Positions 5,091-23,480 of a stretch of 27,420 nucleotides of DNA are shown here, piece by piece. A model generated the notes under the pieces. It was not told the origin of the DNA and made no database searches. It was given only the letters and a program-made list of their open reading frames with translations. The position numbers were made by a program, and so were the translations under genes. The DNA is taken from the IMG/VR virus record IMGVR_UViG_3300009182_003299, positions 1 to 27,420 of that record, one strand, 5' to 3'. Numbering within the stretch: the first letter of the stretch is position 1; every line of letters starts with the position of its first letter. Origin of the DNA: a virus.

Positions 5091-5882
5091 ATGAGTTTAC
5101 CCACAACCACTGGTGCTGTAATTGCCACTACTGACTTCAATCCTACCCAAGCGATATTAGAAGATATCCTGGGTATAGGTGAGAACGGGTGGGGATTAAC
5201 ATCAATTCAATCAAATCCGGTACCGCCGGGTAAACGGATATATGCTCGAGACATTAATGGATTACTAGCTGATGTCAATTTGGTCAATCAACACATAACG
5301 GGTGGATTTACCAATATATCAGCAGTAGTAACAGGCACCGGTGTAGTAAATCATAACACGGCTAATGATTTGTACGATGCGACTCAGTCTCTAGTGGCCA
5401 ACAGATACTCAGTAAACCCCAATCAATTTTTAATATCGGATGGCGGATATTCTACAATCTTTTACGCGGGCGGTGATAGTTTACGTACATTTCCGTGGGG
5501 TATTGATACCAATGTGATCACACATAAGGTAGTAACACAATTCCCCAACAGATTAGCAGCAAGATATTATTTCAACATGGGATGTTATTTGACCTATACG
5601 CCTTATTATAGTGGTTTTGGATTAAATGATCTTGATGCTGAGTGGGCTAATTTTATTGATTATCTTCGAGATCCTGCTCGAACCTATACATATGATCGTC
5701 AAAAGTTTGTAAGCTATGATTCAACTACCACAGCGTGGACCAGTGGGACATTGCATGTAAGTATCACCGCTGACAGAGCAGCGGATTTGAAATCTGTTGA
5801 GTTTACGGTAGAATATCGAAATGATGCCAGTCCTGATCTATTAATAAGTCCGGCTGTGGGCATATACACTATTACATTATAA
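5091..5882 (+). CDS. Fibre-like or neck-like structural protein, 263 aa
   Basis: No enzyme motif is seen. The N-terminus holds ILEDILGIGENGWGL followed by PVPPGKRIYARDINGLLADVN (about residues 22-63), a segment that recurs, to my recollection, in virion structural proteins of T4-like marine phages. The C-terminal half is rich in Tyr, Thr, Ser and Asn and looks beta-stranded, ending VGIYTITL. It is the first gene of a late-type run and is followed after 3 nt by another fibre-like gene. Position and composition point to an appendage or tail-fibre component, but the exact part is unknown. It lacks a Shine-Dalgarno sequence and sits next to a late promoter element. Confidence 0.6.
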   Translation: MSLPTTTGAVIATTDFNPTQAILEDILGIGENGWGLTSIQSNPVPPGKRIYARDINGLLADVNLVNQHITGGFTNISAVVTGTGVVNHNTANDLYDATQSLVANRYSVNPNQFLISDGGYSTIFYAGGDSLRTFPWGIDTNVITHKVVTQFPNRLAARYYFNMGCYLTYTPYYSGFGLNDLDAEWANFIDYLRDPARTYTYDRQKFVSYDSTTTAWTSGTLHVSITADRAADLKSVEFTVEYRNDASPDLLISPAVGIYTITL

Positions 5883-5885
5883 TAT

Positions 5886-7043
5886 ATGGCTACTCCTGCA
5901 ACCCCTATAACGTTCACATTGGCCAATAACACAGTCAATCAAATGTCTATACGTAGCATCACCTATGTAGATGACAGCAACATCACACATCACGCCAATT
6001 ATAGTAATTTTGATTATGGTGGTAGTGACAATACTGATAATACCACTGCTATAACTCGGGTAAAGCAATACCAAACTGGTGATTATTTACAAAGATCATT
6101 TGTATCTGATACACACGCTAGAACTGTTTATTACAGCACACACACTGGCAATATATTAACTATAAAAGACTCAACCACTGAGGGATTATATGCAGGGTGG
6201 GCGGCTGATAGTCTAGGGGATAATGCATTTGATGGATTAACTATCAGCAGTATAGGTGGTCCAACAACCATAGTATTAAGTGGAACTCCTAGTATACTCT
6301 TACCAGCTCAGGGTGAGTCCATTGTATTCTCTATCAGTCCTAACAAGATAACCATCGATGACACTACTGGAATTTATGCAGGTTGGCAAATTAGAGATAA
6401 TGGATATACCAGCCCGGCCACAGTGATCAGTGTAGTAGATAGTCAGACACTAATTGTCAGCGCATTACCTATTAACCCTACAGTGGGCAACACCATGTTG
6501 TTCACATCCTCGACTAATTATCTAACTGTTAATAACACAACTGATATACAAGCCGGGTGGACTGCTCAAACCAGTGACAATGCATATGATGGTTCGCAAT
6601 ATGTAGTATCAGTAATCAATGGCAGCACTGTAAAAATGAGTGCTCAGCCCAATAGTGCCCCTTCAACTAGCTCGCCTGCTAATCAAATAACATTTACTTC
6701 TGATCAACCGTTATCTACAATTGATGCAGGTCAAGCCAAAACATTCATTTTAAACTATACTAATAACAACAGCACACCAGTAGCTAGTCTTCCTTCTATA
6801 CTAACAATCAATGCAAAGAATCTCAGTAACAACAATAGTATTATAGGTCATATCAATAATTATGTGAGTATAAATTCACCACCACCACCACCTCCAGTAT
6901 ATACTAATAATATTAATGGTAACGGTGGAGGTGGTGGCCGGGGTGGGGGTGGTGATTCAATTGGTGCTACCACGGGATGCAAGGGCGGCTTTAATCCGGC
7001 CGTGGGCGGTTATTCGTCATGTAGCAACTCAGGTGATCAATAA
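5886..7043 (+). CDS. Repeat-containing fibre protein with proline and glycine-rich tip, 385 aa
   Basis: Three related modules of about 55-60 residues can be aligned at roughly 91-150, 154-208 and 212-271. Each has the form LTI-x-[DN]-[ST]T-x4-[YQ]AGW, then a turn, a V-x-x-x-x-x-TI/LIV strand and a closing [VLI]-x-F[ST]-S strand. A single beta domain follows (about 272-330). Then come six prolines (332-337) and a glycine-rich run with one Arg (346-356), and a tail with two Cys (C365, C379). The layout of a beta shaft followed by a Gly-rich tip resembles, in outline only, T4-like gp38 adhesins. It is probably exposed on the virion and could take part in host binding. It has no signal peptide or enzyme motif. 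Confidence 0.6.
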   Translation: MATPATPITFTLANNTVNQMSIRSITYVDDSNITHHANYSNFDYGGSDNTDNTTAITRVKQYQTGDYLQRSFVSDTHARTVYYSTHTGNILTIKDSTTEGLYAGWAADSLGDNAFDGLTISSIGGPTTIVLSGTPSILLPAQGESIVFSISPNKITIDDTTGIYAGWQIRDNGYTSPATVISVVDSQTLIVSALPINPTVGNTMLFTSSTNYLTVNNTTDIQAGWTAQTSDNAYDGSQYVVSVINGSTVKMSAQPNSAPSTSSPANQITFTSDQPLSTIDAGQAKTFILNYTNNNSTPVASLPSILTINAKNLSNNNSIIGHINNYVSINSPPPPPPVYTNNINGNGGGGGRGGGGDSIGATTGCKGGFNPAVGGYSSCSNSGDQ

Positions 7044-7052
7044 GAGAATACA

Positions 7053-8519
7053 ATGGCAACTTCATATGATGTAAATTTAAAAATAGGCAGCGCGATTGGA
7101 TTTAATGTAGTCGGGCGTGGCATTATACAGGGATTAACTCCTATACAAACTACCACATTGACATTAGATGGTGATGTATTTCCACCATCTGGATATAACA
7201 CTGGTACTAGAACATTAATTATTGAGCCATTAAATGATTTTTTGTTGTCACCCGGAACAACCAGTACCAGCCAAATAGTAAGAATGACCAATAATGGTAA
7301 TGCTGTATTAACAGTTACTGATATATTATTTTCATTGACTGAAGGAATAGTTCCTCGTTTCTATTTTGATCCGGGAGTAACTGTATTAAACTCTTCCACG
7401 ATTACTATTCTTCCAAATAATACAGCAACCTTTCAATTGGCCTATCTAGCTAGAGATGCTGCTGAGTATAACAGTTATATTATAATAGTATCAAACAGTG
7501 ACAGTGGGTATTACAAACTTCAAACGAGACAATTGGTAATCAATACAGCTGATTTCTCCGTGTCCCCCGCTGAAGTCAACACCAGCACAACCAGTTTAGG
7601 GCATAATGATACATTTACCTATTACATAACACCAATTGTTAATTATGTTAATCGTCCTGATATAATTTTACCTATTGAAGGAACTATTACAGGAAGTCCG
7701 GCATGGACTATAGATAGCATTGGAACCAACTCGATCACTGTGCGATTTAATCCCAATGAGATTAACAATGCAGATGGTATTCATATTTCTAATTTAGTAA
7801 TAAAAGCCAATAATATATATCACCAGGTAACCAACACCGCACTGGTAAGTATAGATCCTAATAAAAACAAAAATCTTGCCAGTTGGATAAGTCCAGCTAG
7901 TCATTTCAACAGTATTATAGGGGTGAGTTACGACTTAGAGGATGATATCAAATATATAACTATAGGGGTAGGCATGGGTGCGGATGGTTCACCTTTATAC
8001 GGTGAAAGTGGCGGTAATATATTTGTTAATGTAGCTAATCTTGGATTAGGTGCCGGAACTGCAACTGTTAAATATCCATTTTGGGCCAATGTATATAAAA
8101 TTCCTTTAGATAGTACCGGTACATCGCAAGTATACCATAGTGCAGATTACATAGTTAAAACTACCAAGACCTACGAAGGATTAGATTATAATACATTTTT
8201 TGGAGAATATAGGGCACCTGGTTCTATGTTTATCATTGAAGATGACGGATATGGATCAGTAACTATTGAAATTAATCACCTAAGAGACCTCGAACCAGGT
8301 ATTCCTGGTTATGTGTTTGATACATTGAGAAATTTAACCAGAGCATTCCATTATTACTCTAATGTTGATATAAATGGTAGATTTACTCCATTATCTCCAG
8401 AGTATGCCAATCCTAATGTGTTTGATACCAGCACTACTAATTTGTTCCTTGGGTTCAATTACAATACTCGAGATAAGTTAGCATTTGTTAATACATCAAT
8501 TGTACCTTTACCGGTATAA
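7053..8519 (+). CDS. Ig-like domain structural protein, 488 aa
   Basis: Residues about 60-135 (LLSPGTT...IVRMTNNGNAVLTVTDI...ITILPNNTATFQLAY) have the pattern of an ASH/SPD-2-like immunoglobulin-fold domain, and a second beta domain covers about 165-265. The C-terminal part (about 275-488) is a separate domain with ISPASHFNSIIGVSYDLEDDI and FWANVYKIPL, ending in Tyr/Asn-rich strands. I recognise no enzyme. Ig-like modules are common on fibres, whiskers and capsid decorations. The ATG is preceded by AAGAGA at a proper distance, and the gene lies 9 nt after the previous one. It is likely part of the same appendage assembly. Confidence 0.6.
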   Translation: MATSYDVNLKIGSAIGFNVVGRGIIQGLTPIQTTTLTLDGDVFPPSGYNTGTRTLIIEPLNDFLLSPGTTSTSQIVRMTNNGNAVLTVTDILFSLTEGIVPRFYFDPGVTVLNSSTITILPNNTATFQLAYLARDAAEYNSYIIIVSNSDSGYYKLQTRQLVINTADFSVSPAEVNTSTTSLGHNDTFTYYITPIVNYVNRPDIILPIEGTITGSPAWTIDSIGTNSITVRFNPNEINNADGIHISNLVIKANNIYHQVTNTALVSIDPNKNKNLASWISPASHFNSIIGVSYDLEDDIKYITIGVGMGADGSPLYGESGGNIFVNVANLGLGAGTATVKYPFWANVYKIPLDSTGTSQVYHSADYIVKTTKTYEGLDYNTFFGEYRAPGSMFIIEDDGYGSVTIEINHLRDLEPGIPGYVFDTLRNLTRAFHYYSNVDINGRFTPLSPEYANPNVFDTSTTNLFLGFNYNTRDKLAFVNTSIVPLPV

Positions 8520-8564: not shown

Positions 8565-10076
8565 ATGACAACATACACTTGGAGTAAGAATCCCGATCTT
8601 GACAAATTAATGACTTTTGAAAAAGATCCCTACGGCGTCTTTGAACCCAGAGTGTGGGACAGTGTATATGAGTTAGTTTGGTATATAGATCCTAGATTCA
8701 ATCCCTTGCCCGATAAAGTTTGGGCTATGCGCTGTAGGCCAGTAGGTAAAATTGAAGGTGTTAAGGATATGGGATATCTTGTGCCCAATGTTAATGTTGA
8801 ATATAATAATGAGCTACCAGATTTAGGTGTAGATGTCGATCAATGTTGTCCTGCATTTTGGGAACTTGAAAATGAGTGTGCATGGGAGTTAGATCCTATA
8901 CATACACCTAACAATCGTATGTGGGTAGTCAAATATAGTCCAGCATATCGAAAACCTAAATCTTGGCAATGGTATGGTATCATATCACCTGAATACCATA
9001 TCGAATACAATCCTGATCTACCCAATATGGAATATGATCTAGACTATATTATTCCGTGGCATGATTTAACTTATGAGCATGTATGGATGTTAGATCGCAA
9101 GCATTTATTAAATGATGAAGCTGATATATGGGCATTCAAAATTAAAGTATCGAATGATATAGAAGTTAGTAAAACTATAGACTATATTAGTCCTAACATC
9201 AATATTGAATACAATCCTGATCTACCTAAAATGAAGTTTGATTTAGATTATATTATTCCGTGGCATGATTTAACTTATGGTCATGCATGGTGTTTAGATG
9301 ATACCGAAAAGACGTGGGCAATTAAAATGTCTGCTACTAATAATCCAACAGGTATCAAAGAAATGCCCGATGTCAAAATTGTAGTTTCTAAGCAATTAGA
9401 TGTTATCTTTATCAGTTATCATGAGCCCAATGCAGAAGAAAATTGGCAAAGGGTATTAGAAAAAGCTCCTTGGGCAAAACGTGTAGATGGTGTTGAGGGC
9501 ATATTTCAAGCACACAAAGCCGCAGCAAAACTATCCACTACAGATATGTTTTACGTAGTGGACGGTGATGCATGGTTAGTAGATGATTTTAATTTTGATT
9601 TTCAACCTAACATATATGATAGAGATTGCACACATGTATGGCGAGCAAGGAATCCAATCAATGGATTAGTCTACGGCTATGGTGGAGTCAAATTGTTTCC
9701 TAAACAGGCGTTAATGAAAATGAAAACATGGAAAACTTTAGATTTATCTATGTCGGCAAACTCTAAAATTAAAATCATCAACAAAATTAGTAACATTACC
9801 GCATTTGATACAGATGCATTATCAGTCTGGCGAAGTGCTTTTAGAGAATGTGTAAAACTGTGTTATAATATAAAACAAGATCCAACTGACCACGATAGTC
9901 AATATCGTCTCGAACAATGGACAAACAAGGATACAGATCATCAATTGGGAAAATATGCAAGAAATGCTGCTCAACTGTCTGTAGAATGGACTAATAATAA
10001 TTATAATGATCTAAAAACTTTAAAATTAATCAATAATCGAAAGTGGATAGAAAACATGGCTAATATAAATGAGTAA
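8565..10076 (+). CDS. Four-repeat protein fused to a glycosyltransferase-like domain, 503 aa
   Basis: The N-terminal half has four related units (about 30-88, 98-158, 164-228, 232-265). Each has W/F-x-LD followed by W-[AV]-x-[KR] strands and an EYNPDLP segment. Units 3 and 4 are nearly identical also in DNA. From about 277 a new domain begins: LDVIFISYHEPNAEENW, a basic VDGVEGIFQAHKAAA helix, then YVVDGDAW (330-337), whose D-G-D is a GT-A-type metal-binding DxD motif, and later GYGGVKLFP. This fits a phage glycosyltransferase-like family. Acceptor and donor are unknown. Its place between fibre genes and radical SAM genes suggests sugar transfer to a virion protein or surface glycan. It is 45 nt downstream of the fibre gene, without a clear ribosome site. 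Confidence 0.65.
   Translation: MTTYTWSKNPDLDKLMTFEKDPYGVFEPRVWDSVYELVWYIDPRFNPLPDKVWAMRCRPVGKIEGVKDMGYLVPNVNVEYNNELPDLGVDVDQCCPAFWELENECAWELDPIHTPNNRMWVVKYSPAYRKPKSWQWYGIISPEYHIEYNPDLPNMEYDLDYIIPWHDLTYEHVWMLDRKHLLNDEADIWAFKIKVSNDIEVSKTIDYISPNINIEYNPDLPKMKFDLDYIIPWHDLTYGHAWCLDDTEKTWAIKMSATNNPTGIKEMPDVKIVVSKQLDVIFISYHEPNAEENWQRVLEKAPWAKRVDGVEGIFQAHKAAAKLSTTDMFYVVDGDAWLVDDFNFDFQPNIYDRDCTHVWRARNPINGLVYGYGGVKLFPKQALMKMKTWKTLDLSMSANSKIKIINKISNITAFDTDALSVWRSAFRECVKLCYNIKQDPTDHDSQYRLEQWTNKDTDHQLGKYARNAAQLSVEWTNNNYNDLKTLKLINNRKWIENMANINE
9003..9290 (+). repeat. Internal DNA duplication, two copies about 84 bp, 204 bp apart
   Basis: The stretch 9003-9086 recurs at 9207-9290 with few changes, including the identical block around TATTCCGTGGCATGATTTAAC. 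The offset is exactly 68 codons, so the frame is kept. It marks a recent or homogenised duplication of one N-terminal module of the glycosyltransferase-like protein. Confidence 0.8.
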
Positions 10077-11448
10077 TGAACACCGAATAGAAATTCTTAA
10101 AAATAAAGTTATTAAAATAAATTCAGTAAGTCCTAGCTTTTGTACAGCTAAATGGTTACAAACTACTTTATATTTGCAAAACGGATACAATCATAGTTGC
10201 CATCATCCCGGACCACATAAGATACCTGTAGATGAAGTATTAGCTGATCCAGCGGCATTACATAATTCAAATTATAAAAAACAGCAACGCAAGTTAATGT
10301 TAGAGGGTCAACGACCTAGTGAATGTGAGTACTGTTGGAATATTGAAGATTTAAACAAAGACTATTTCTCTGACAGACATTACAAAACTAGTGATTATTG
10401 GGCTTGGGATAGGTTTGATGAGATTGCTAGGTCTAATTGGGATGATAATATCAATCCTGCATATTTGGAAGTAAGTTTTTCTAATGCATGTAATCTCAAA
10501 TGTGCCTATTGCAGTCCGGAGATTAGTTCTAAGTGGTTAGAGGAGATTGAACGATACGGTCCATATCCTAGTGGATTGGGAGATTTAACATGGTTAAAAG
10601 ATACTGGCAGATATCCCTATAAGAATAAAGAAGCAAACCCATATGTTGATGCATTCTGGACTTGGTTTCCTGACATATATAAAGATTTAAAAGTATTTCG
10701 GGTCACCGGTGGCGAACCCTTAATGAGCAAGGATCTGTGGAAATTATTTGATTGGATAATAGAAAATCCCAATCCTCAATTAGAGTTAGCAATTAACAGC
10801 AACATGTGCAATGATAAGTTGTTAATTAATAAGTTTATTGAAAAACTTAATTTGGTACAAGGCAAGGTTAAACGTCTTATTGTTTTTACCAGCATTGAAA
10901 GTATAGAACAACAAGCAGAATATGCTAGATTTGGTATGAATTATACTCAATGGCTAAACAATGTGAATTTTCTATTAGAAAACACACAAGTTGAATTAGG
11001 TATAATGACCACAATGAATATATTAAGTGTTAATCAAACTACTGATCTAATAGAGTTAGCAATGAAGTTACGTTCTACATTTAATAAATCTAACGACGAC
11101 ACTAGGATACATTTAAGTTTCAATATACTTCGTTGGCCTCCTATACTAGATGTTAGGTTGTTGCCTAATGACTATAAACAACAACTCTCGTCGACGATCA
11201 TAACTAAAGGCAAATGGTGGACTAAGTTTGAAAATGGAACTACTTTTTCTAAAATATATTTAGAAGAATTAGATCAGCTAAAGCGTTTCTGTGATTATAT
11301 GACTAGTGATATTGATGAGGAAGAATGTAATATACATCGCAAGAATTTTATTGCATTTGTTGATGAGTATGATAAAAGAAAAGGAACAGATTTTTTAAAA
11401 ACATTCCCTCATTTAGAATCAATCTATTATGATTGGAATAACCTGTGA
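10069..11448 (+). CDS. Twitch-type radical SAM protein 1, 459 aa
   Basis: The radical SAM core starts at SNACNLKCAYCSP: C141, C145 and C148 form the CxxxCxxC site for the SAM-bound 4Fe-4S cluster, and TGGEPL (212-217) is the SAM-binding GGEP motif. Upstream, C25, C44, C86 and C89 (SPSFC..., SCHHP, CEYCW) form an auxiliary-cluster set of the SPASM/twitch kind, here placed at the N-terminus. Such proteins are called twitch domain-containing radical SAM proteins and are known from marine T4-like viruses, with no proven substrate. The start overlaps the previous stop by 8 nt, and the next gene begins within GTGA. The cysteine positions are identical to those of the 527-aa paralogue. Confidence 0.85.
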   Translation: MSNEHRIEILKNKVIKINSVSPSFCTAKWLQTTLYLQNGYNHSCHHPGPHKIPVDEVLADPAALHNSNYKKQQRKLMLEGQRPSECEYCWNIEDLNKDYFSDRHYKTSDYWAWDRFDEIARSNWDDNINPAYLEVSFSNACNLKCAYCSPEISSKWLEEIERYGPYPSGLGDLTWLKDTGRYPYKNKEANPYVDAFWTWFPDIYKDLKVFRVTGGEPLMSKDLWKLFDWIIENPNPQLELAINSNMCNDKLLINKFIEKLNLVQGKVKRLIVFTSIESIEQQAEYARFGMNYTQWLNNVNFLLENTQVELGIMTTMNILSVNQTTDLIELAMKLRSTFNKSNDDTRIHLSFNILRWPPILDVRLLPNDYKQQLSSTIITKGKWWTKFENGTTFSKIYLEELDQLKRFCDYMTSDIDEEECNIHRKNFIAFVDEYDKRKGTDFLKTFPHLESIYYDWNNL

Positions 11449-12116
11449 AAATAATACATTATCAAAATATAGGATTCCCTAAATGTGGAACTAGTTGGTT
11501 GTATGGTAGGATTGGTAACATGCATGATGTGACCAAACTTGACAAAGAAAACCCCTGGCAAGAAAGATATACTAACGAACACGAATTTAAAATAAAATAT
11601 ATAGATCGTTACAACTCACATGATATTACTTTTAATTTTAATACACAAACATATAATCTACCAATTGAAAAAATAAAAAAAGTTCATGAATACACTACTC
11701 ATCTTACTATGATTATAAGAAATCCTTGGGAGATAATGGAGAGTTGGTATAATTATTCAATTACGGGTTATCAAGGAGAAAAGTATATTAGAACACTTGA
11801 CATAAATCCTATGTTTGATTTTCCTAAAGTTTTTCAAAACTGGGCATTTTCTCAAATACCAGTAAAAGTGATGTTATATGACGATTTATGTGATACTCCT
11901 GTTGAATTTGTAAAAGAGATATGCAAATATACAGGCATACGATATAACGGGTTAGTTACAACTGAATCGATTCTCGCATGGTATGAACGTATAAACAAAA
12001 CCACATATATTAAATCATTACCTATACCTAGTAAGGAACTAATTAATTTAATTAACAATAGAATTACCGAGACAGAATTGATAACTGGAAGAAACCTTAA
12101 TCACTGGAAAAAATAA
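11445..12116 (+). CDS. Sulfotransferase family protein, 223 aa
   Basis: Residues 10-20 (GFPKCGTSWLY) are the 5'-phosphosulfate loop of PAPS-dependent sulfotransferases, and IRNPWEIMESWYNY (91-104) is the 3'-phosphate motif with R92 and S100. The length is a little short of the usual 250-300 aa, but both cofactor motifs are intact. It would move a sulfuryl group from PAPS to a hydroxyl of a sugar or other acceptor. The gene starts at GTG within GTGA of the first twitch gene and ends in TAATG at the second, so it is embedded and co-translated between two radical SAM paralogues. That placement suggests a shared substrate. No APS kinase or ATP sulfurylase is in the window, so PAPS must come from the host. 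Confidence 0.85.
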   Translation: MKIIHYQNIGFPKCGTSWLYGRIGNMHDVTKLDKENPWQERYTNEHEFKIKYIDRYNSHDITFNFNTQTYNLPIEKIKKVHEYTTHLTMIIRNPWEIMESWYNYSITGYQGEKYIRTLDINPMFDFPKVFQNWAFSQIPVKVMLYDDLCDTPVEFVKEICKYTGIRYNGLVTTESILAWYERINKTTYIKSLPIPSKELINLINNRITETELITGRNLNHWKK

Positions 12117-13699
12117 TGCCAAAAAAAACAAATGAAACATATACAGAATATAGGAATAGAGCAATTGATTCTATCAGTCCCAGTTTCTGCGGAGCAAAAT
12201 GGTACAATGCAACTGTTTGGTTAGGTAGTGGAAGTACAGCAAGTTGTCATCATCCACCGGCACATAAGATACCATTAGAAGAATTAGCTCGTAGTCCAAA
12301 AGCTCTACATAATACCGAATACAAAAAGTTAGTAAGAGAACAGATGCTCAGGGGAGAACAACCAGAAGAGTGTGACTATTGTTGGAAGATTGAAGGATTG
12401 AGCAAAGACACAGTTAGTGATCGTGTGTATAAGAGTATAATTTATTCTGATCAAGATTTAATAGATGCAAAAACTGTATTTGGCAGTAATATCGATGTTG
12501 ATCTAAAAACGTTAGAGATTGCATTTGATGCTAATTGTAATTTTGCCTGTAGTTATTGCAATCCTAGTTTCAGCACAACATGGATGGCAGATGTTAAGAC
12601 TAATGGGCCTTATCAGAATCTAGTAAGCGACGGTGCTGGAGCATTTCAACAAGACGGAACATGGGCACAACCTTACGGTATTAAGAACAAAGATAACCCA
12701 TATGTAGAAGCATTTTGGAAATGGTGGGAGGGTGATCTACAACATAGTTTAAAAGAGTTGCGAGTAACTGGTGGGGAAGCAACTATGAGTCAAGACTTTT
12801 GGAAACTAATGGATTGGTGGCAACAGCATCCTGAGTGCAAAGTTGCATTAGCTGTTAACAGCAACCTAGGAGCAACACCTAAGTTAATTGACCGACTGTG
12901 CAAAGCAACGCATAGTTTTAAGAGTTTTGATCTTTACACCAGCAATGAAAGTTATGGGGCTCATGCTGAATATATTAGAGATGGCCTCAATTGGGAAATT
13001 TGGTTATCTAATTTACGCATGATGATTGAGCAAGGCAATTGTCGTGCAACACATATGATGATGACTATTAATAGTTTGTCGTTGTTTAGCATTGTTGAGT
13101 TCATGGATGAGATGTTAAAGTTACGCAAAGAATTTGGACGTAAACATTGCACAATGAGTTTTAACATATTGCGTTTCCCTAGCTTCATGAGTCCATTAAC
13201 ATTGCCACAGTCCATAAGGAATCAAATAGCAGATAAACTTGAAAGTTGGATCGATACCAAATGGGAAGAGCAAGGTAATTCAGATGGTCAGGGTACAGGA
13301 TTGATACATCAAATGGAATATGATAGCATCAAACGTATGCTACCATATCTACGTGAGCTAGATGTTGGACACAATCAGACCAGCAGTTTAGAAACTAGAG
13401 AACGCGACTTTAAGAGTTTCTTCATGCAGTATGATCAACGTAGAGGTAAAGATTTTAAAACAACCTTCCCTGAACTAGCAGAATGGTATGATTCTATACC
13501 TGTTACTGACCTAACACCCTTGACTGAATTCATAGATGGTGATAGTACTAAAGGATGGGGACATGCTGATAGGTTAGTTGAGAAAGCTAACAAAGAAGGA
13601 TGGATATTAAACCCAACTGGAGAAAATCCAGGAAGTCAAACATACAAACAGCCAGCTGTAGGTGCGCCTATTAAATTTTACAAAAAGAAGCATGTCTAA
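12116..13699 (+). CDS. Twitch-type radical SAM protein 2, 527 aa
   Basis: Paralogue of the 459-aa protein. The N-terminal cysteines C25, C44, C86 and C89 and the radical SAM cysteines C141, C145 and C148 (DANCNFACSYCNP) fall at exactly the same residue numbers. The GGEP motif is here GGEAT, so the usual Pro is replaced by Ala. The protein is longer at the C-terminus by about 70 residues, with an acidic-basic tail ending VGAPIKFYKKKHV. The core fold and auxiliary-cluster domain are intact. The gene starts in TAATG at the sulfotransferase stop and overlaps the next start by 8 nt. Substrate unknown. Confidence 0.85.
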   Translation: MPKKTNETYTEYRNRAIDSISPSFCGAKWYNATVWLGSGSTASCHHPPAHKIPLEELARSPKALHNTEYKKLVREQMLRGEQPEECDYCWKIEGLSKDTVSDRVYKSIIYSDQDLIDAKTVFGSNIDVDLKTLEIAFDANCNFACSYCNPSFSTTWMADVKTNGPYQNLVSDGAGAFQQDGTWAQPYGIKNKDNPYVEAFWKWWEGDLQHSLKELRVTGGEATMSQDFWKLMDWWQQHPECKVALAVNSNLGATPKLIDRLCKATHSFKSFDLYTSNESYGAHAEYIRDGLNWEIWLSNLRMMIEQGNCRATHMMMTINSLSLFSIVEFMDEMLKLRKEFGRKHCTMSFNILRFPSFMSPLTLPQSIRNQIADKLESWIDTKWEEQGNSDGQGTGLIHQMEYDSIKRMLPYLRELDVGHNQTSSLETRERDFKSFFMQYDQRRGKDFKTTFPELAEWYDSIPVTDLTPLTEFIDGDSTKGWGHADRLVEKANKEGWILNPTGENPGSQTYKQPAVGAPIKFYKKKHV

Positions 13700-14999
13700 T
13701 CCATATTTTTGCACAGCACCATGGACACATACTTACCTCAGTCCGCAAACTGAACGTAGGATATGCTGTGCCAGTAGAGAACAAGCCACTTGGCAACGTC
13801 AATATATTGATCAAAACAGTGATGCTATTAATAAGGACTACAAACCTGTTACATTAGAAGAACACTGGAACAGCGAACATATGATGAGTGTTCGAAAGAG
13901 AATACTTGCGGGAGAATCAATTCCAGAATGCCAAGTATGTAATGATAACTTATTAAATTTATATACATATAGAGATTACTTTACCAAAACATTGTTTCCA
14001 CATAAGGTAAATGATATACTGGCCAATACAGATGAGAATGGATTTACTACATTAAAGCCAGTGAGTTTTGATTATAGAATATATAATCTTTGTAATTTCA
14101 AATGCCGTATGTGCGGAGAACAATTGAGTAGTGCATGGGAAACTGAAAAACGTACAATGGGTATGTGGGATCCAAAACGAGATGTTTGGATGGTTGACGA
14201 AGCCAAAGCAAAAATAGAAGAATTTCAAAGTTCAGTATGCGAAGAAGAATTATGGGCATCGGTTAAAAATAATACTATTGAGGAGATATATTGGGTAGGT
14301 GGTGAACCTCTTATGTATCAGATACATTGGGATATTATGCAGTATCTGGTTAAATCGGGGCATAGTAAAAATGTCACAGTTAGATATAACACCAATCTGA
14401 GCAGAACAACGTATAAAGGTATTAACCTTTATGATCTATTGCCACATTTTAAAAATGTTAACATGTGTTGCTCGCAAGACGCCACGGGCAAAGTAGCAGA
14501 ATATATACGTTCAGGTCTTAAATGGAATGAATGGTTAACAAATTTCAAAAATGGTATATTTTTAAATGATTTATACGGAATGAATGGAATGGTTATTGAT
14601 GTAACACTAACACTACCAGGTATGCTAGACATGAAAAATTTAATAGACCTAGCAGTAGAATTAGGTGTAAAGAGTTATGTAAAGATTACATTTGATTTTG
14701 ATCCTAGTGCAATAATGAGTCCAATGTGTTTGCCAAAAAAATTATTAAATGCATTGTTGGATGATCTAATAGAATACGAACAAAATAATGGTAATGAATA
14801 CACACGTATCTATAGTGAAACTTTCAAGGAGATGAAAAATCGCCCTAATTTTAATGACAAGTACTTGGATTATGAGCAAGGTTTGCGCAATGGTAAAAAG
14901 CGTTATGAAAAAATCGACAAGCATCGGGGTGACGATGTTCTTTTGCGCAGTATTTTAAGTAACAACACTGATATTTTAGATTGGTATGATAATATATGA
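13692..14999 (+). CDS. Twitch-type radical SAM protein 3, 435 aa
   Basis: The frame extends back to a GTG at 13662, but the ATG at 13692 is the natural start: the family signature FCTAPW follows at once and the overlap with the previous gene falls to 8 nt (ATGTCTAA). N-terminal cysteines are C7, the pair C25-C26, then C80 and C83 (CQVC). The radical SAM cluster is C134, C138 and C141 (LCNFKCRMCG), with VGGEPL downstream. The CC pair is shared with the next paralogue but not with the first two, so the four proteins form two subtypes. The gene ends in ATGA over the next start. Function unknown beyond radical SAM chemistry. Confidence 0.85.
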   Translation: MSNPYFCTAPWTHTYLSPQTERRICCASREQATWQRQYIDQNSDAINKDYKPVTLEEHWNSEHMMSVRKRILAGESIPECQVCNDNLLNLYTYRDYFTKTLFPHKVNDILANTDENGFTTLKPVSFDYRIYNLCNFKCRMCGEQLSSAWETEKRTMGMWDPKRDVWMVDEAKAKIEEFQSSVCEEELWASVKNNTIEEIYWVGGEPLMYQIHWDIMQYLVKSGHSKNVTVRYNTNLSRTTYKGINLYDLLPHFKNVNMCCSQDATGKVAEYIRSGLKWNEWLTNFKNGIFLNDLYGMNGMVIDVTLTLPGMLDMKNLIDLAVELGVKSYVKITFDFDPSAIMSPMCLPKKLLNALLDDLIEYEQNNGNEYTRIYSETFKEMKNRPNFNDKYLDYEQGLRNGKKRYEKIDKHRGDDVLLRSILSNNTDILDWYDNI

Positions 15000-16192
15000 A
15001 ACCAATAATAAAAAATATTGTGAGTGAAACATTTTGTCCACTTCCATGGATGCATTTAGCGACACATCCTGAAGGCAAAAGTACATTATGCTGTGTAAGT
15101 GATCACACTAATAATATGAGTGCAGCCAGAACCAACGGCAAGGTATTAAATTTAAATAAAAATAAAGTAGTTGAAATTGTCAACAGCGACTATTATATAA
15201 CCGTTCGTCAGCAAATGAATAATAACATCAAACCCGAATCATGTTTAAGGTGTTACCATGAAGAAAATATTCAGATAAAGAGCAAGCGACAATTAGAGTT
15301 AGACCGCTTTGGTTCCAAATACACCGATGATAACGGTTTGATAACGCCTAATATAAAATTCATTGAACTAAGATTAGGGAATTTGTGCAATGTACGTTGT
15401 AGAACCTGCAATCCCGCAAGTAGTACTCAATGGATAAGTGAGTACAGCAAATTACAAAATGAATTAACATTTGTAACTCATTACGACGGGAAAATAGATA
15501 CAGATTGGACACACTCGGACAGTTTTTGGGATGATTTGTTAGAGAATAGTAAACATGTTGAATTGATTTATATTAATGGAGGTGAACCTACTTTAGTAGA
15601 GAAACATTGGAATTATTTAGAAAGATTAATTGAACGTGGCTTGCACAAGCAAGTTAAGTTATGGTACAGCATTAATATGACCAATCTACCAGACAGGTTA
15701 TTAGACATATGGAAACAATTTAAAGAAGTAGAAATACATGCTAGCATTGATGATTTATACGAACGCAATGAGTACATTAGGAAAGGTACCAAGTGGATAG
15801 ATGTTGAAACAAATTTAAATAAATTAATTAAAAATAAATGGATTAATAGTAGTGTTACACAAACCATTAGTTGGATGAATATATATTATGTACAAGAATT
15901 TAAGGACTATTTTGATAAATTGGGTATGCGAGTACAACATAATTTAGTTCATGATCCTGAATTTTATAGTGTAAGCATCTTGCCATTAACTATAAAAGAT
16001 AAATTGATTAAAAGACTAGATAATTTTAATCATTTATTAGTCCAAATTTCTACCAATGTAAATAATGAACAATTTAAAAATGGAATTAAATACAATAATT
16101 GGTTAGACAACAATCGTAAAGAAAATTTTAACCAACTATTCACACCTTGGAGTTCAATTATAAATGACACATTTGATCAAAACTGGATTTGA
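14996..16192 (+). CDS. Twitch-type radical SAM protein 4, 398 aa
   Basis: Shortest of the four tandem paralogues. N-terminal auxiliary cysteines are C14 (ETFCPLPWMH), the pair C32-C33, and C83 and C86 (CLRC). The radical SAM site is C131, C135 and C138 (LCNVRCRTCNP), followed by NGGEPT. It is closest in layout to the 435-aa protein. Its start is in ATGA with the previous stop, and its 3' end overlaps the SGNH-like gene by 29 nt. It retains all cluster ligands and the SAM motif, so it is expected to be active. Confidence 0.85.
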   Translation: MKPIIKNIVSETFCPLPWMHLATHPEGKSTLCCVSDHTNNMSAARTNGKVLNLNKNKVVEIVNSDYYITVRQQMNNNIKPESCLRCYHEENIQIKSKRQLELDRFGSKYTDDNGLITPNIKFIELRLGNLCNVRCRTCNPASSTQWISEYSKLQNELTFVTHYDGKIDTDWTHSDSFWDDLLENSKHVELIYINGGEPTLVEKHWNYLERLIERGLHKQVKLWYSINMTNLPDRLLDIWKQFKEVEIHASIDDLYERNEYIRKGTKWIDVETNLNKLIKNKWINSSVTQTISWMNIYYVQEFKDYFDKLGMRVQHNLVHDPEFYSVSILPLTIKDKLIKRLDNFNHLLVQISTNVNNEQFKNGIKYNNWLDNNRKENFNQLFTPWSSIINDTFDQNWI

Positions 16193-17012
16193 CTACGACG
16201 TATCAATTGAAACAGAATTTTCAGGAACTGATAACGCAGAATTGTATTATAAAAATAGATCTAAGTTTGGTCCATCTTGGGCATATTATCATCCAAACAT
16301 AACGTATAAGTTCAATTCTTTTGGGTATAGAATGAACAAAGAATTAGATGATATAGATTTTGATAATTATATTGCGTTCTTTGGTTGTAGTTTTTGTGTT
16401 GGTACAGGGTTACCGCTCGAAGATACATATGCATACAGAATATCAAAAGAACTAGATGTTGATTATATTAATGGGGCAATGGGCGGAGGATCTCCTAAAC
16501 TTGTTTTTAACAATTTAGTAACTTTATTTAAGAATGCACCTAAATTGCCTAAACACGTGATTATTAATTGGCCTCCCATTTATAGAACAATGTTTTGGTT
16601 TGAAAATTATACAACATTTTTTGGTCCAAACTTTTCTCCCAATCAAACTCCGGCATTTAAATATTGGGAAGATACATACAATAAACTATTAATACAAGAA
16701 ACTAATATTTTGAATGAATTTGATATAATTCAAAATAATATAAAAATGTTATGTGATTTTGCCGAAGTTCCGTTGTTTGAAATGTCTAGCAATCCGGGAG
16801 TTGGAAATAATGAAGAATTTTTTAAAAAATATAGTAGTGTACATCAAATCCGTATTTCAACAACTGACATAGTTGATCAAACCAATATCAAACAAGTAAA
16901 CTATGAGTTAGCAAGAGATGTCAGCGAATCTGGTACGCATCCTGGAATTTATCATCATCAAACAGTAGTAGACAAATTTTTAATGATTAACTCTATCAAA
17001 AAAAATTTATAA
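16164..17012 (+). CDS. SGNH hydrolase-like protein, 282 aa
   Basis: FFGCSFCVGTGL (72-83) is a block-I motif of GDSL/SGNH hydrolases in the GCS form, with S76 as the candidate nucleophile. NGAMGGGSP (103-111) fits block II, VIINWPP fits block III, and SGTHPG (256-261, H259) is block V. The usual catalytic Asp three residues before His is not in place (S256 there). D252 is the nearest Asp, so activity is uncertain. Family members remove or transfer acyl groups on sugars and lipids. The start lies 29 nt inside the previous gene, and I see no better one. Context suggests acyl editing of the same modified product. Confidence 0.7.
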   Translation: MTHLIKTGFDYDVSIETEFSGTDNAELYYKNRSKFGPSWAYYHPNITYKFNSFGYRMNKELDDIDFDNYIAFFGCSFCVGTGLPLEDTYAYRISKELDVDYINGAMGGGSPKLVFNNLVTLFKNAPKLPKHVIINWPPIYRTMFWFENYTTFFGPNFSPNQTPAFKYWEDTYNKLLIQETNILNEFDIIQNNIKMLCDFAEVPLFEMSSNPGVGNNEEFFKKYSSVHQIRISTTDIVDQTNIKQVNYELARDVSESGTHPGIYHHQTVVDKFLMINSIKKNL

Positions 17013-17189: not shown

Positions 17190-18134
17190 ATGATACATTG
17201 GGGAATTAATGCTCTTAATCATGGCAGCAGCATTGCCGTATTTGACAACGATCTTAAATTATTTGAGTTTAATAAAACAGACACTTTATATTTAGATTCA
17301 ATAACCCGAGCATTAGAATTTAGCAAACCGGATCGTATATTTTGGTATGAGCGTCCCTGGCTTAAAAAAGCAAGACAATTTTATGCTGGTCAGTATTCTG
17401 TTGCAATGGATCTTAATGAATTGCCTAATCGTTATCTTAAAACAATAGGATTGGGTGATGTTCCTATTACCTATACCCCGCATCATGGAAGTCATGCAGC
17501 AGCTGGTTATTATACAAGCCCATTTGATCACTGTGCTATAGTTGTCCTTGATGCTATAGGAGAATTTGAATGCGCAACTGTTTGGGAAGGTAACAATAAT
17601 AAGATGCGTAAAGTTTGGAGCCGTACCTATCCACATAGTCTTGGATTATTTTATAGTGCGTTTACTAAATTAATAGGGCTAGAGCCCATTAAAGATGAAT
17701 ACTTATTACAACAAATGTCATCCAACGGGGACCCTAACAGGTTTAAACATGCTGTGCAAAGGTATTTTGGTCAAGGTACGTTAAATTTAAATTATAACTT
17801 TCATAAAGGTGTTAATAACTGGCAGCTAGAAATCACAGACGAACAATGTAAATTTGATATCGCAGCAGCGGTTCAATTGGTATTTGAAGAACAAATTTCT
17901 CAAATTATGAATATTGCAAAAACTCGAACTAATGCAGATAATCTAGTATATATGGGTGGATGTGCGATGAACAGCCGTGCAAACTTAAATGTAGTTAAGC
18001 AATGGAAACATGTTTGGAGTTTGCCGAATCCGGGAGATCCGAGTAGTGCAATTGGTGCGGTATTATACCATACAAAAAATCGTATTTCTGATTATAACTT
18101 AGGCCTAGTCAAGCATATCAATATTTCTATATAA
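17190..18134 (+). CDS. Carbamoyltransferase N-terminal domain only, 314 aa
   Basis: It matches the Kae1-like N-terminal domain of the NodU/CmcH/TobZ family: a WGINALNHGSS start, HHGSHAAAGYYTSPF with the metal/carbamoyl-phosphate histidines, VLDAIGEFECATVW, and late YMGGCAMNSRANLN and NPGDPSSAIGA. The family is normally 500-600 aa with a C-terminal YrdC-like carbamoyl-transfer domain. Here the protein stops right after the N-terminal domain. The SMSS-like region EYLLQQMSSNG replaces the usual EGKxMGLA loop. A good AAGGA site precedes the ATG. Its 3' end overlaps the convergent methyltransferase gene by 30 bp. It may be a regulatory or partner subunit, or the stump of a gene cut at an operon junction. 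Confidence 0.75.
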   Translation: MIHWGINALNHGSSIAVFDNDLKLFEFNKTDTLYLDSITRALEFSKPDRIFWYERPWLKKARQFYAGQYSVAMDLNELPNRYLKTIGLGDVPITYTPHHGSHAAAGYYTSPFDHCAIVVLDAIGEFECATVWEGNNNKMRKVWSRTYPHSLGLFYSAFTKLIGLEPIKDEYLLQQMSSNGDPNRFKHAVQRYFGQGTLNLNYNFHKGVNNWQLEITDEQCKFDIAAAVQLVFEEQISQIMNIAKTRTNADNLVYMGGCAMNSRANLNVVKQWKHVWSLPNPGDPSSAIGAVLYHTKNRISDYNLGLVKHINISI

Positions 18135-18753: not shown

Positions 18754-20265
18754 CTATTTCCTAATGACATAATCATTAATTACTAACATATCTAACCCGC
18801 ATTTTTTAAAGGTGTTTACTGCATCAATTGGAGTTTCAACTACGGGTTCTTGACAATTAAAACTGGTATTCAGCAGCATAGGAATTCCTGTGATTTTATA
18901 AAACTCATTTATTAAATTGTAATAGTGTTTGTTAAAGTCTTTACTAACAGTTTGAATTCTTGCTGTACCATCTACATGAGTGACTCCTGGTATCTTATCT
19001 GAAGTTACAGGCATGATGCGAGACATATACGGACTAAGTTGATTTGTATCAAAATATTCTTTATAATATTCCTCAAGGACACTAGGGGCAAATGGTCTGA
19101 AGTCTTCGCGTAGTTTAATTTTTGAATTAATAATATTCTTAATGTTTGGATTTCTAGGATCGGCTAGTATGCTTCTATTTCCCAATGCTCTATTGCCGCT
19201 TTCACTCTTTCCCTGATACCAACCGATTATTTCACCGTTTGCAATGGCATGAGCAGCTTTTTTATAAACTTCATCCATGGATATTTGTTGATATTTTAAA
19301 TTATCAAATATACCAATATCTACTAAATGCTCTTTTCCAGAATATACTGTAGGTACTCGAATACTCTTGTTTAAAATATAATCGGCATGCATATAAGCAC
19401 CTATCGATTGTCCTTCGTCTCCAGCAGCAGGAGGAACATGTACATTTGAATAGTGTTTGGTCAATTCTTCGTTCATATATCCATTATAAGCAACTCCCCC
19501 TGCAACACATATATTATTTGATGTTTTAAGAGGATACACAAATTTTTTAATCAACTCAATTGTAGCGTATTGTAAAGTAAATGCTACATCTTCTTTAGGA
19601 ATCTGTTTTATTATATCTAACGCTCCATCGGGCAATCGGTGATTGGGATTTTGTAAATATTGTTCAATCATGCTATGGATTTGTTTATCGTATTTTCCAA
19701 ATCCTACCAATCCCATAGTCTTCCCAGCACCTAAATATCCAAAACCTATATCCTGAGATAGTCTATTCCATAGTCCACCTATTGATATTTTTTCAGACAG
19801 GTCAGTAATTGTACCGTGTTTATCAACAAATATACAATTGAATTGCCATCCTCTACCATCTATTGCTAATATATCAGATTCATTAAATCCTGAACTTAAA
19901 AAAGCATATGCTGCATGACTTTGGTGATGATCAATATAATAATAATGTTCATTATGTAATCTATCCCAAAGATTCTTTGGTTTGAATGATAAAAAACTTG
20001 TATCTGGTAATGTTTCCTTAAGAAGATCCAAAACAAACTCCTGTCCTAAATTAGAAACAGTGAATGCAAAAACATTATGTTTATTAGCTTTTTTATAATT
20101 AGGCAAAAAATACTCAAGAAAAAATTCTCTACTATATGTAGGATCGTGTGGATTTAATCGATTAAGATTATTTTTTCTTCTGGTATATCTCTCTATTTGA
20201 TTATGAAATTCGCCGTCAAATGTGTTATGATCGTGAATATTCACTGCTACTGCAAAAATTTTCAT
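18754..20265 (-). CDS. Carbamoyltransferase (NodU/CmcH/TobZ family), 503 aa
   Basis: Both domains are present. The N-terminal Kae1-like domain has HHQSHAAYAF (113-122), IDGRGW (135-140), GAGKTMGL (179-186), VAGGVAYNG (254-262) and PPAAGDEGQSIGA (278-290). The C-terminal domain starts near 325 and has WYQGKSESGNRALGNRSIL (349-367), REDFRPFAPSV and LNTSFNCQEPVVETP. The family moves a carbamoyl group from carbamoyl phosphate, through a carbamoyl-adenylate made with ATP, to a hydroxyl of a sugar or antibiotic. The N-terminus lacks the usual GI-x-[AG]-x-HD opening and reads VAVNIHDHNTFDGEF instead. The gene starts in TAATG at the radical SAM stop. It is the complete counterpart of the truncated protein at 17190-18134. 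Confidence 0.88.
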   Translation of the reverse strand: MKIFAVAVNIHDHNTFDGEFHNQIERYTRRKNNLNRLNPHDPTYSREFFLEYFLPNYKKANKHNVFAFTVSNLGQEFVLDLLKETLPDTSFLSFKPKNLWDRLHNEHYYYIDHHQSHAAYAFLSSGFNESDILAIDGRGWQFNCIFVDKHGTITDLSEKISIGGLWNRLSQDIGFGYLGAGKTMGLVGFGKYDKQIHSMIEQYLQNPNHRLPDGALDIIKQIPKEDVAFTLQYATIELIKKFVYPLKTSNNICVAGGVAYNGYMNEELTKHYSNVHVPPAAGDEGQSIGAYMHADYILNKSIRVPTVYSGKEHLVDIGIFDNLKYQQISMDEVYKKAAHAIANGEIIGWYQGKSESGNRALGNRSILADPRNPNIKNIINSKIKLREDFRPFAPSVLEEYYKEYFDTNQLSPYMSRIMPVTSDKIPGVTHVDGTARIQTVSKDFNKHYYNLINEFYKITGIPMLLNTSFNCQEPVVETPIDAVNTFKKCGLDMLVINDYVIRK

Positions 20266-21089
20266 TATAAATTCTTTTCTGCTTCAATTATTTTAAGTAT
20301 TTGTGTTTTTCGAAATTCTGGTCTAGGAGGAATGATGTCGTAACAAGTTTCGCAATATTTTTCAAATTCAAATAATTTAAAAGTCATCATCTTGTCTATA
20401 TTTTCTTTCGTTACATCAAATTCTTTTGAGCCATTGATAACTTTTCTACTACAATGTCGTATTTTTTGTATTTCAAAATCAAAAACAGGAACTAATGGAA
20501 ACTTCGCGCATATTCTTCTATCTATTTCCGGTGCTTTTTCTTTAAACTCGAAACTAGGAGATCTAGAGTTGTATTCTTTAAACTCGGTATTTTCATGATC
20601 GATCATCCACAAATCATATTTTTCTCTGTATTTAAAATAGTTAGGTGTTTGAATAATTAAATTATAATTGTTCTTATTATTTTCTTCAAGAAATTCGTAA
20701 TTTCCTAACTTTTCAATTTTGTCTTCATAAAAATCAAGAACCAAATGTTCGATGTATATTATCTCCGGATCTTCTAGAATCCACGGATAAAATTTTCTCA
20801 CTAAAGAATTTGATAAAACTTGTATAATAAAGTTTGGATATTTTTTAATTTCATCAATTACTTCTTTAAGATTTTTAATGAGACCGGGCTCGCCTCCAAG
20901 CAAGCAAATTCTTGTTTTATAAGGACTTAGATATTCGAGAGTCTTTCTTAAGAAATCCATATCTACATTTAAATTTCTCATCTCAAGCGTCCACGCTGTG
21001 CAATAATGGCACGACTTATTGCATGACTTTGACAAATAAAAATCAACGGTTAGATAGTCTGAACTTTTTAAATCTTTTAATGTTAACAT
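20265..21089 (-). CDS. Radical SAM protein with C-terminal auxiliary-cluster cysteines, 274 aa
   Basis: The radical SAM cluster site is C23, C27 and C30 (SCNKSCHYC), and LLGGEPGL (63-70) is the SAM motif. The protein is short. C194, C213, C246 and C249 (with YCETCYD) form a late cysteine set with an 18-residue gap and a CxxC, like a reduced SPASM/twitch domain at the C-terminus. This is the reverse order to the four plus-strand twitch proteins, which carry theirs at the N-terminus. No ribosome site is evident 15 nt after the SPASM-like gene. Its stop overlaps the carbamoyltransferase start, so the two are probably made together. Substrate unknown. Confidence 0.8.
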   Translation of the reverse strand: MLTLKDLKSSDYLTVDFYLSKSCNKSCHYCTAWTLEMRNLNVDMDFLRKTLEYLSPYKTRICLLGGEPGLIKNLKEVIDEIKKYPNFIIQVLSNSLVRKFYPWILEDPEIIYIEHLVLDFYEDKIEKLGNYEFLEENNKNNYNLIIQTPNYFKYREKYDLWMIDHENTEFKEYNSRSPSFEFKEKAPEIDRRICAKFPLVPVFDFEIQKIRHCSRKVINGSKEFDVTKENIDKMMTFKLFEFEKYCETCYDIIPPRPEFRKTQILKIIEAEKNL

Positions 21090-21104: not shown

Positions 21105-21449
21105 TTAGATATTTCTAACTTTTTCTACAGCACCACTATCAGGATTGATCCATGTATCTTTTCGAACCATATTAATATCGTCCTCTTTCACTCGGCATAC
21201 CGTCATACAAGCATCTGGTCCTTTATGATTTCTTAAATCTTCTTCAAAATCTTTCCATTCTTTTAAGGACACAATTTCATCTAAGGTTTCATAATCACTA
21301 ATTTTGCTCACTTCCATAAGTTTTTGAAATTTTGGATCATCAAGGGTATATTTGTCGTCGCAATGGCAACAAGGTAATAGATAACCAGTATTTGTTATTG
21401 CCATTGGAAAACGTTTAAAACACGCCGGATCTAATTTTATTTCACTCAT
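21105..21449 (-). CDS. Free-standing SPASM/twitch-like iron-sulfur protein, 114 aa
   Basis: Cysteines C10, C27, C28, C30, C81 and C85 lie in the order of a SPASM/twitch auxiliary-cluster domain: C...FP...IT-x-x-GYLLPCCHC, then SLKEW...DL before C-x3-C. There is no radical SAM core. The gene starts in ATGA at the stop of a radical SAM core gene that itself lacks this domain, so the pair looks like one enzyme split into two polypeptides. It would hold the auxiliary 4Fe-4S cluster in trans. It could also be an independent ferredoxin-like partner. Confidence 0.75.
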   Translation of the reverse strand: MSEIKLDPACFKRFPMAITNTGYLLPCCHCDDKYTLDDPKFQKLMEVSKISDYETLDEIVSLKEWKDFEEDLRNHKGPDACMTVCRVKEDDINMVRKDTWINPDSGAVEKVRNI

Positions 21450-22081
21450 CTCAGTTTTTCCATTCTATATTCTAGTCTAGTTGGCATTAACCAGTCATTA
21501 TTTCCGTTCCATCTAGAACTTTGTACAAGATAAAAACCTACTCCTACTTCTTTTGCTAACGCAATGGCAGCATCAATGCTATATTCATTATAACTAAAAA
21601 TGATATATTGCCATACTGGTTTATTAACCAAATACTTTTTTGACTCTACCATAATGTCAAATAATTTTGGACCATCTTGATTAATCCTATATGTTTTGCT
21701 TTCTGCAGGAAGACCGTCAATTGAAAATACCCATTGAGCATTTGGGTTAGCTTCGAATGCTTCTATGTACCACTCTTTAGATTTTGCTGATGATGCATTG
21801 TGTATTTCTGTCTCAATATCTGCCTCAAAGGACATTTTTAAAAGATTTATAAACGATCGATGATGAACAGGATCGGATAGTTGACCTTCGAAATTAATTC
21901 CCTTAAAAAATTTAAGAACTTTTTTAAAATTCTCTATGCTAAGGTCATTGCCCGGTACTTTCAATCCCTTATTTCTAAAATCGTATTGTCGTTGACATCT
22001 CGGGCATTCAAGAGGACACCGATTAGTTAAATCTATATTAACTCCTCGAATTTTTCCGTTAAAAAAATTATTATTTTCCAT
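21446..22081 (-). CDS. Radical SAM core protein lacking its own SPASM domain, 211 aa
   Basis: DLTNRCPLECPRCQRQ supplies C22, C26 and C29 of the CxxxCxxC site. FEGQLSDPVHH stands where SPASM-type enzymes carry G-x-GDP or GGEP. WVFSIDG and later beta-strand segments follow the partial TIM barrel. The protein ends at YRMEKLR without any C-terminal cysteines, while typical SPASM enzymes are about 350-400 aa. The missing part appears as the next gene, coupled through ATGA. Its own start overlaps the nitroreductase end by 11 nt. Confidence 0.82.
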   Translation of the reverse strand: MENNNFFNGKIRGVNIDLTNRCPLECPRCQRQYDFRNKGLKVPGNDLSIENFKKVLKFFKGINFEGQLSDPVHHRSFINLLKMSFEADIETEIHNASSAKSKEWYIEAFEANPNAQWVFSIDGLPAESKTYRINQDGPKLFDIMVESKKYLVNKPVWQYIIFSYNEYSIDAAIALAKEVGVGFYLVQSSRWNGNNDWLMPTRLEYRMEKLR

Positions 22082-22787: not shown

Positions 22788-22796
22788 ACAATACAC

Positions 22797-23465: not shown

Positions 23466-23480
23466 ATGTTTCTTTTGAGT

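Follow-up and report, generated by a model that had tools for sequence, protein, structure and literature searches.

Four conserved lineages of N-terminal-twitch radical SAM proteins form a phage gene cassette

Background

Radical S-adenosylmethionine (SAM) proteins with a twitch domain ahead of the core are described as one subfamily, NCBIfam NF033640 (N_Twi_rSAM, twitch domain-containing radical SAM protein; curated cut-off 170 bits). For CC-type members, the auxiliary domain has a counterpart in BtrN, a dehydrogenase in butirosin biosynthesis, whose twitch domain gives four cysteines to an auxiliary [4Fe-4S] cluster, which is thereby fully ligated (PMC6231123). SkfB, SuiB and CteB carry, in addition, an amino-terminal RiPP (ribosomally synthesized and post-translationally modified peptide) recognition element, or RRE (PMC6231123). 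In T4-like marine phages, the host-recognition clusters of pelagimyophages bring fibres, glycosyltransferases and radical SAM cassettes together in one variable island, bordered by VrlC and gp14, and the accessible part of that account treats these cassettes without subtypes, gene order, a twitch domain or a bacterial counterpart (PMC7029224, 2020). Here we describe a cassette of four radical SAM genes, labeled r1, r2, r3 and r4 from 5' to 3' on the plus strand, in a 27.4 kb phage fragment of environmental origin, IMG/VR virus record IMGVR_UViG_3300009182_003299 (positions 1-27,420), hereafter the window.

All four proteins resemble NF033640 members along their whole length, with the twitch domain ahead of the core, and score 309-339 bits over nearly the full length of the model, about twice the cut-off. 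NF033640 is described as one subfamily, whereas the phage genes belong to four fixed lineages in a fixed order, two of which share a variant hairpin, SCHHPxxH. The subfamily itself is known; the arrangement and the site variant are newly described, and the cassette is real and well conserved. Our literature search found no paper on the subtypes, their order, the histidine-rich signature or the bacterial counterparts, nor one naming N_Twi_rSAM or NF033640. We favor, with a probability of roughly 0.45, the reading that the cassette uses radical chemistry to tailor a glycoconjugate of a surface or of the virion, in the fibre/host-recognition island of a T4-like myophage.

The four proteins

The r1-r4 genes (Table 1) are all intact and retain the CxxxCxxC and GGE motifs. 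A sequence-only reading of the window had described four intact radical SAM genes in a row, each with a CxxxCxxC site and amino-terminal auxiliary cysteines; the coordinates and residues are as it claimed and the order is tandem, although a sulfotransferase-like gene lies between r1 and r2. The r2 and r3 genes overlap by 8 bases, and r3 and r4 by ATGA. As that reading had also noticed, the 459- and 527-residue proteins (r1 and r2) have all seven cysteines at the same residue numbers (C25, C44, C86 and C89, then C141/C145/C148), and the 435- and 398-residue proteins have a CC pair in common (r3: C7, C25C26, C80 and C83, then C134/138/141; r4: C14, C32C33, C83 and C86, then C131/135/138). The amino-terminal domain of r4 also matches PF13186 (E 1.7e-6).

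In BLASTP comparisons, r1 and r2 are clearly the closest pair of the four (37% identity, E 4e-96), while r3 and r4 (25%, E 2e-23) are no nearer to each other than r2 is to r3 (25.5%, E 1e-21). Against the nearest related phage contig (L006), the ratios of nonsynonymous to synonymous substitution rates (dN/dS) are approximately 0.058 for r1, 0.034 for r2, 0.11 for r3 and 0.09 for r4, the last with saturated dS. The four genes are under strong purifying selection, and these values (about 0.03-0.11) suggest that four functional copies are retained, as had been proposed from the letters of the window. That any of them is a degenerate copy is ruled out by the full motif set together with the low dN/dS, with the same reservation about dS in r4.

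Conservation among phages

Searches of IMG/VR viral contigs returned 479 relatives for r2, the best 80 of them at 52-96% identity, at least 600 for r3, 18 for r4 and 22 for r1, the last two figures being shaped by the search patterns as well as by true abundance. Against the INPHARED phage collection, r1 or r4 produced no more than three weak matches. The contrast between hundreds of IMG/VR relatives and few INPHARED matches suggests that these are widespread enzymes hardly seen in culture. Since the phage loci come from a similarity ranking and are related to one another, the tallies below are counts rather than independent trials, and P-values are indicative only. Five contigs from marine metagenome-assembled genomes (L107, L108, L110, L115 and L175) were counted as phage because one common order of open reading frames (ORFs) precedes their family genes; their identity with the phage clusters is inferred from ORF order and lengths.

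The set is well conserved. Among 71 r2-anchored loci with enough flanking sequence, r1 is present in 68, in 60 of these within 1.2 kb; both r3 and r4 occur in 27 of the 71, r3 alone in five, r4 alone in none and neither in 39. The order r1-r2-r3-r4 holds in 27/27 loci with all four genes. Around r3, r4 is found in 64/75 loci and r2 in 64/69. The number of family members per locus varies from one to eight. The cassette consists of a core pair, r1 and r2, and an accessory pair, r3 and r4, in which r4 never occurs without r3 among the r2-anchored loci.

Phylogeny and lineage history

In a FastTree phylogeny of 132 whole proteins, r2, r3 and r4 form separate supported clades, and r1 and r2 fall together. 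Trees of the N-terminal domain and of the core, computed separately as the sequence-only reading had advised, recover the same groups, which indicates that the two domains co-evolved; there is no sign of domain swapping between them. The r2, r3 and r4 clades have support of 93-100 in both, and r1 and r2 are grouped at support 100 in both (with one further entry included), r1 being resolved less well in the N-domain tree. A grouping of r3 with r4 appears in neither.

The r1+r2 clade, set against the missing r3+r4 clade, identifies r1 and r2 as sister lineages from an old duplication and r3 and r4 as two different lineages. The proposal of two subtypes, each duplicated, therefore holds for r1/r2 and fails for r3/r4, which are ruled out as a duplicated pair and whose CC pair is carried by most of the family. 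The four are separate, old and conserved lineages. Because many phages and Bdellovibrionota share them, they did not arise by duplication within this phage; a recent duplication here is ruled out by the tree and by the fixed order in other phages.

The N-terminal auxiliary domain

A C-x(17-19)-C ... CxxC pattern precedes the core in all 74 r1-r4 representatives. Solved structures in the PDB were searched with profiles of the whole family, of the CC-type N-domains alone and of the r1/r2 N-domains alone. The whole-family profile reaches BtrN solely by way of its N-terminal portion (E 3e-7 and 4.3e-7), and the CC-type profile matches BtrN (4M7S) with E 1.1e-7. In CC-type members, the family cysteines align with all four cluster ligands of the BtrN auxiliary domain, C169, C187, C232 and C235 (4M7S/4M7T). 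The AlphaFold2 (AF2) models of r4 and r2 (mean predicted local distance difference test scores, pLDDT, 94.5 and 90.0) predict a hairpin, a short helix, a longer helix and the CxxC, which is the order described for twitch domains. Together with the BtrN match, this agrees with the earlier suggestion of twitch-like N-terminal domains. BtrN is absent among the 50 listed fold matches because the core dominates the comparison, and its absence does not count against the twitch match. The zinc-finger structures matched by r1/r2 N-domains are regarded as chance.

The position of the domain sets the cassette enzymes apart from described systems. The twitch domain of BtrN follows the core, whereas that of the cassette enzymes, whose activity is predicted only, precedes it. 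SkfB, SuiB and anSME are related to them in core fold (Z about 11-13) and also have an auxiliary cluster domain, but in maturases of the SkfB, SuiB, CteB and anSME SPASM/twitch type this domain is C-terminal. Nor is SPASM itself matched: it has seven cysteines after the core, and the cassette domain has four (five with the CC pair) before it. The reversed order pointed out in the sequence-only reading is thus true, although NCBIfam had already named it as N_Twi_rSAM. In SkfB, the C-terminal twitch domain sits beside the first strand of the core (PMC6231123), so relocation to the N terminus need not alter the fold and, by analogy, may leave it unchanged here.

The auxiliary site exists in two versions. 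The hairpin of r3, r4 and the majority of other members carries a CC pair 18 and 19 residues after the first cysteine (+18/+19), and 53/58 unclassified family members have this pair too; CC is the norm for the family. The r1/r2 N-domain keeps four cysteines, but its single hairpin cysteine stands at +19 rather than +18, one residue later than in BtrN, within an invariant SCHHPxxH that brings three invariant histidines. This signature is present in 44/44 phage r1/r2 representatives and in 0/88 other phage members, and with a slightly looser pattern in 28/33 bacterial r1/r2-type proteins. The hairpin form shared by r1 and r2 is the reason why they have their cysteines at the same residue numbers, and it possibly marks an altered cluster site.

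Genomic neighborhood in phages

The cassette lies downstream of fibre-like genes and amid genes for glycan chemistry (Table 1). The first of the fibre-like genes groups with ORFs that recur ahead of r1-r2 in 28 loci, and the nearest related contig holds ORFs homologous to the fibre-like genes. The ORF cluster of the putative glycosyltransferase is immediately upstream of r1 in 27/80 loci, and a GT7+LamG gene takes this place in 38/80. A related contig (L009, 14381-16714) likewise has W-rich repeats before a putative glycosyltransferase domain. Between r1 and r2, the related loci have no ORF in 29 cases and a different small ORF in 32; the latter (about 194 residues, 32/80 loci, for example L026 6521-7102) has no Pfam match and looks lectin-like by eye. 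The ORF cluster of the SGNH/GDSL-like gene was found in 32 loci.

More widely, genes for UDP-glucose dehydrogenase, carbamoyltransferase and SGNH-like proteins occur often in the related phage loci, with fibre-like ORFs further upstream. GT7 (PF02709/PF13733) with LamG occurs in 42 related loci, a tail sheath gene lies downstream in 19, and T4-type gp23 is above cut-off in 18/50 related contigs. Fibres and glycosyltransferases in a T4-like setting are what these contigs share with the pelagimyophage host-recognition cluster. The window also encodes a GDP-mannose dehydratase, and its two carbamoyltransferase ORFs are on opposite strands. The adjoining SPASM-like and radical SAM core ORFs (21105-22081) either form a naturally split gene or result from a frameshift.

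Table 1. Cassette genes and other features of the window
Feature	Position	Strand	Basis
Three fibre-like structural genes preceding the cassette	5091-8519	+	Sequence reading and context; no Pfam match
Putative glycosyltransferase with W-rich repeats at its N terminus, immediately before r1	8565-10076	+	Weak assignment; no Pfam match
r1, N-terminal-twitch radical SAM enzyme, SCHHPxxH variant	10069-11448	+	459 aa; NF033640 E 1.1e-96, 324 bits
Sulfotransferase-like gene between r1 and r2	11445-12116	+	PF00685 E 3.8e-5, 23.6 bits (cut-off 22)
r2, N-terminal-twitch radical SAM enzyme, SCHHPxxH variant, C-terminal extension	12116-13699	+	527 aa; NF033640 E 2.2e-93, 314 bits
r3, N-terminal-twitch radical SAM enzyme, CC type	13692-14999	+	435 aa counted from its ATG; NF033640 E 6.7e-92, 309 bits
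r4, N-terminal-twitch radical SAM enzyme, CC type	14996-16192	+	398 aa; NF033640 E 5.1e-101, 339 bits
SGNH/GDSL-hydrolase-like gene overlapping the r4 end	16164-17012	+	Sequence reading; no significant Pfam match
Carbamoyltransferase, N-terminal domain only	17190-18134	+	PF02543 E 1.9e-32
Carbamoyltransferase, full-length	18754-20265	-	PF16861 E 4.7e-66; PF02543 E 2.5e-20
Short radical SAM protein outside the cassette, no auxiliary domain match	20265-21089	-	PF04055 E 1.1e-7
SPASM-like ORF	21105-21449	-	PF13186 E 1e-3
Radical SAM core ORF	21446-22081	-	Overlaps SPASM-like ORF by 4 bases
Four nitroreductase-family ORFs around a DegT aminotransferase	22071-24164 and 26082-27353	-	PF00881 (one only weakly)

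Bacterial relatives

Many of the genome-contig matches are genuine chromosomal loci. In one Bacteriovoracaceae genome, genes of the r2, r3 and r4 types follow one another in this order beside obgE and rpmA (named by sequence reading), and the genome carries further r1- and r2-type genes. In its class, 63/129 genomes have an r2 match (E <= 0.001), the weaker ones being other family members. In Bdellovibrionota, bacteria of predatory type, the family genes adjoin carbamoyltransferases, GT4-type transferases, DegT and ABC-2 exporter genes, and 8/42 bacterial loci have a carbamoyltransferase close to a family member, versus 0.27 expected. S74-chaperone or pilin-like fibre proteins occur in 9-10 Bdellovibrionota loci, which were chosen partly for a nearby PqqD gene.

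In these loci (L197-L211; for example L203 7651-8511), a PqqD of about 97 residues and an S74 (endosialidase chaperone) protein of about 150 residues follow or flank r1-type genes, with pilin-like fibre proteins beside them. Separately, an Elusimicrobia metagenome-assembled genome (bin-0981; L116-L130, L136 and L143) encodes N_Twi_rSAM proteins head to tail in dozens of copies, many of them fused behind long TPR regions to a total of about 560-1200 residues.

Proposed function and alternatives

If the cassette tailors a glycoconjugate, each enzyme would use one SAM-cleaving [4Fe-4S] cluster, held by CxxxCxxC, and probably one auxiliary cluster. A 5'-deoxyadenosyl radical would abstract hydrogen from a residue of the glycoconjugate built by the adjacent glycosyltransferase, carbamoyltransferase, sulfotransferase and hydrolase genes, and the auxiliary cluster would take up the electron, on the model of the aminocyclitol dehydrogenase BtrN, leaving oxidized, epimerized or deoxygenated residues. 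The four enzymes may work on different residues or one after another; that they have different substrates or positions, as the sequence-only reading had supposed, is made likelier by four separately conserved lineages. The product would decorate the virion fibres (less likely the host surface) and thereby set or hide receptor recognition. The cassette probably finishes a surface coating rather than holding spare copies.

The proposed glycan substrate is suggested by the neighbors, which are alike in genomes of two unrelated kinds, and by the sugar-like substrate of BtrN. Several observations weigh against this reading. Many of the neighboring 'glycosyltransferases' were assigned by sequence reading, with no Pfam match. 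The r1/r2 N-domain profile alone finds neither BtrN nor any other solved structure below E 0.4, so a twitch cluster in r1 and r2 rests on homology with the rest of the family. In addition, r2 is present in 11 of 18 r1-anchored loci and missing from the other seven, which suggests that r1-type genes can stand alone. In Bdellovibrionota, moreover, genes of the r1/r2 type have a PqqD-like gene at a distance of up to 1 kb in 16/73 cases versus 0.09 expected (up to 10 kb, 23 versus 0.6), and PqqD-like proteins serve peptide-modifying radical SAM enzymes. An adjacency so far above chance points to a peptide substrate.

The enzymes might accordingly modify a polypeptide, for example a fibre protein, an adhesin or a small peptide made on the ribosome, in the manner of radical SAM RiPP maturases, with PqqD presenting the peptide in bacteria and another part doing so in phages. 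Some bacterial loci have a co-directional r1-PqqD-S74 protein series with pilin-like fibre genes next door, the phage copies lie downstream of fibre-like genes, and SkfB, SuiB and anSME are among the matches by profile and by fold. However, a PqqD-type RRE (PF05402) is above cut-off in 0/50 phage contigs, which may be fragments and in which divergent RREs may escape detection; no conserved precursor peptide was identified, short precursor ORFs not having been searched systematically in phages; the cassette is retained behind differing fibre and glycosyltransferase sets; and glycan genes are present in the same bacterial loci. On balance we consider a peptide substrate somewhat less likely than a glycoconjugate.

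It is more doubtful that the cassette changes the host's own surface polysaccharide during infection, blocking competing phages, and leaves the virion as it is. This role has been proposed for the glycosyltransferases of the pelagimyophage host-recognition clusters (PMC7029224), and the carbamoyltransferase and GDP-mannose dehydratase of the window suit O-antigen-type chemistry. Against it, the cassette is co-oriented with fibre-like genes and near a tail sheath gene in 19 loci, an arrangement that suggests late expression with virion genes.

A bolder extension of the glycoconjugate reading, which we regard as improbable, makes r1 and r2 a dedicated pair with a new type of auxiliary site, a permuted twitch whose SCHHPxxH hairpin would give Cys/His ligands or leave the site open for substrate. 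T4-like phages and Bdellovibrionota would then have exchanged the same lineages, which would serve as a module for tailoring surface-fibre glycoconjugates, with PqqD as the bacterial partner and the second enzyme in that role in phages.

That these are auxiliary metabolic genes for a cofactor such as heme (AhbD-like), or antiviral viperin-type nucleotide enzymes, is very improbable: the profile matches to AhbD, MoaA and viperin are weak and the neighbors are glycan and fibre genes, although 261 instances of phage 'ahbD' were counted in a Baltic Sea study, which judged their function speculative (PMC9301287). The individual assignments were rejected on score: AhbD heme b synthase (TIGR04545) reaches 17.5 bits with r1 against a cut-off of 500, r2-r4 not being listed; viperin (NF038283) at best 25.2 bits, with r3, against 180; and MoaA 36.8 bits, with r1, against 284.

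Implications

Phage genes of this kind risk annotation as metabolic genes, for example as ahbD. The link to Bdellovibrionota offers bacterial relatives with a defined neighborhood, and the SCHHPxxH site provides a direct test case for auxiliary cluster ligation. If the cassette does tailor the fibres or a fibre glycan, radical chemistry would become part of phage host recognition.

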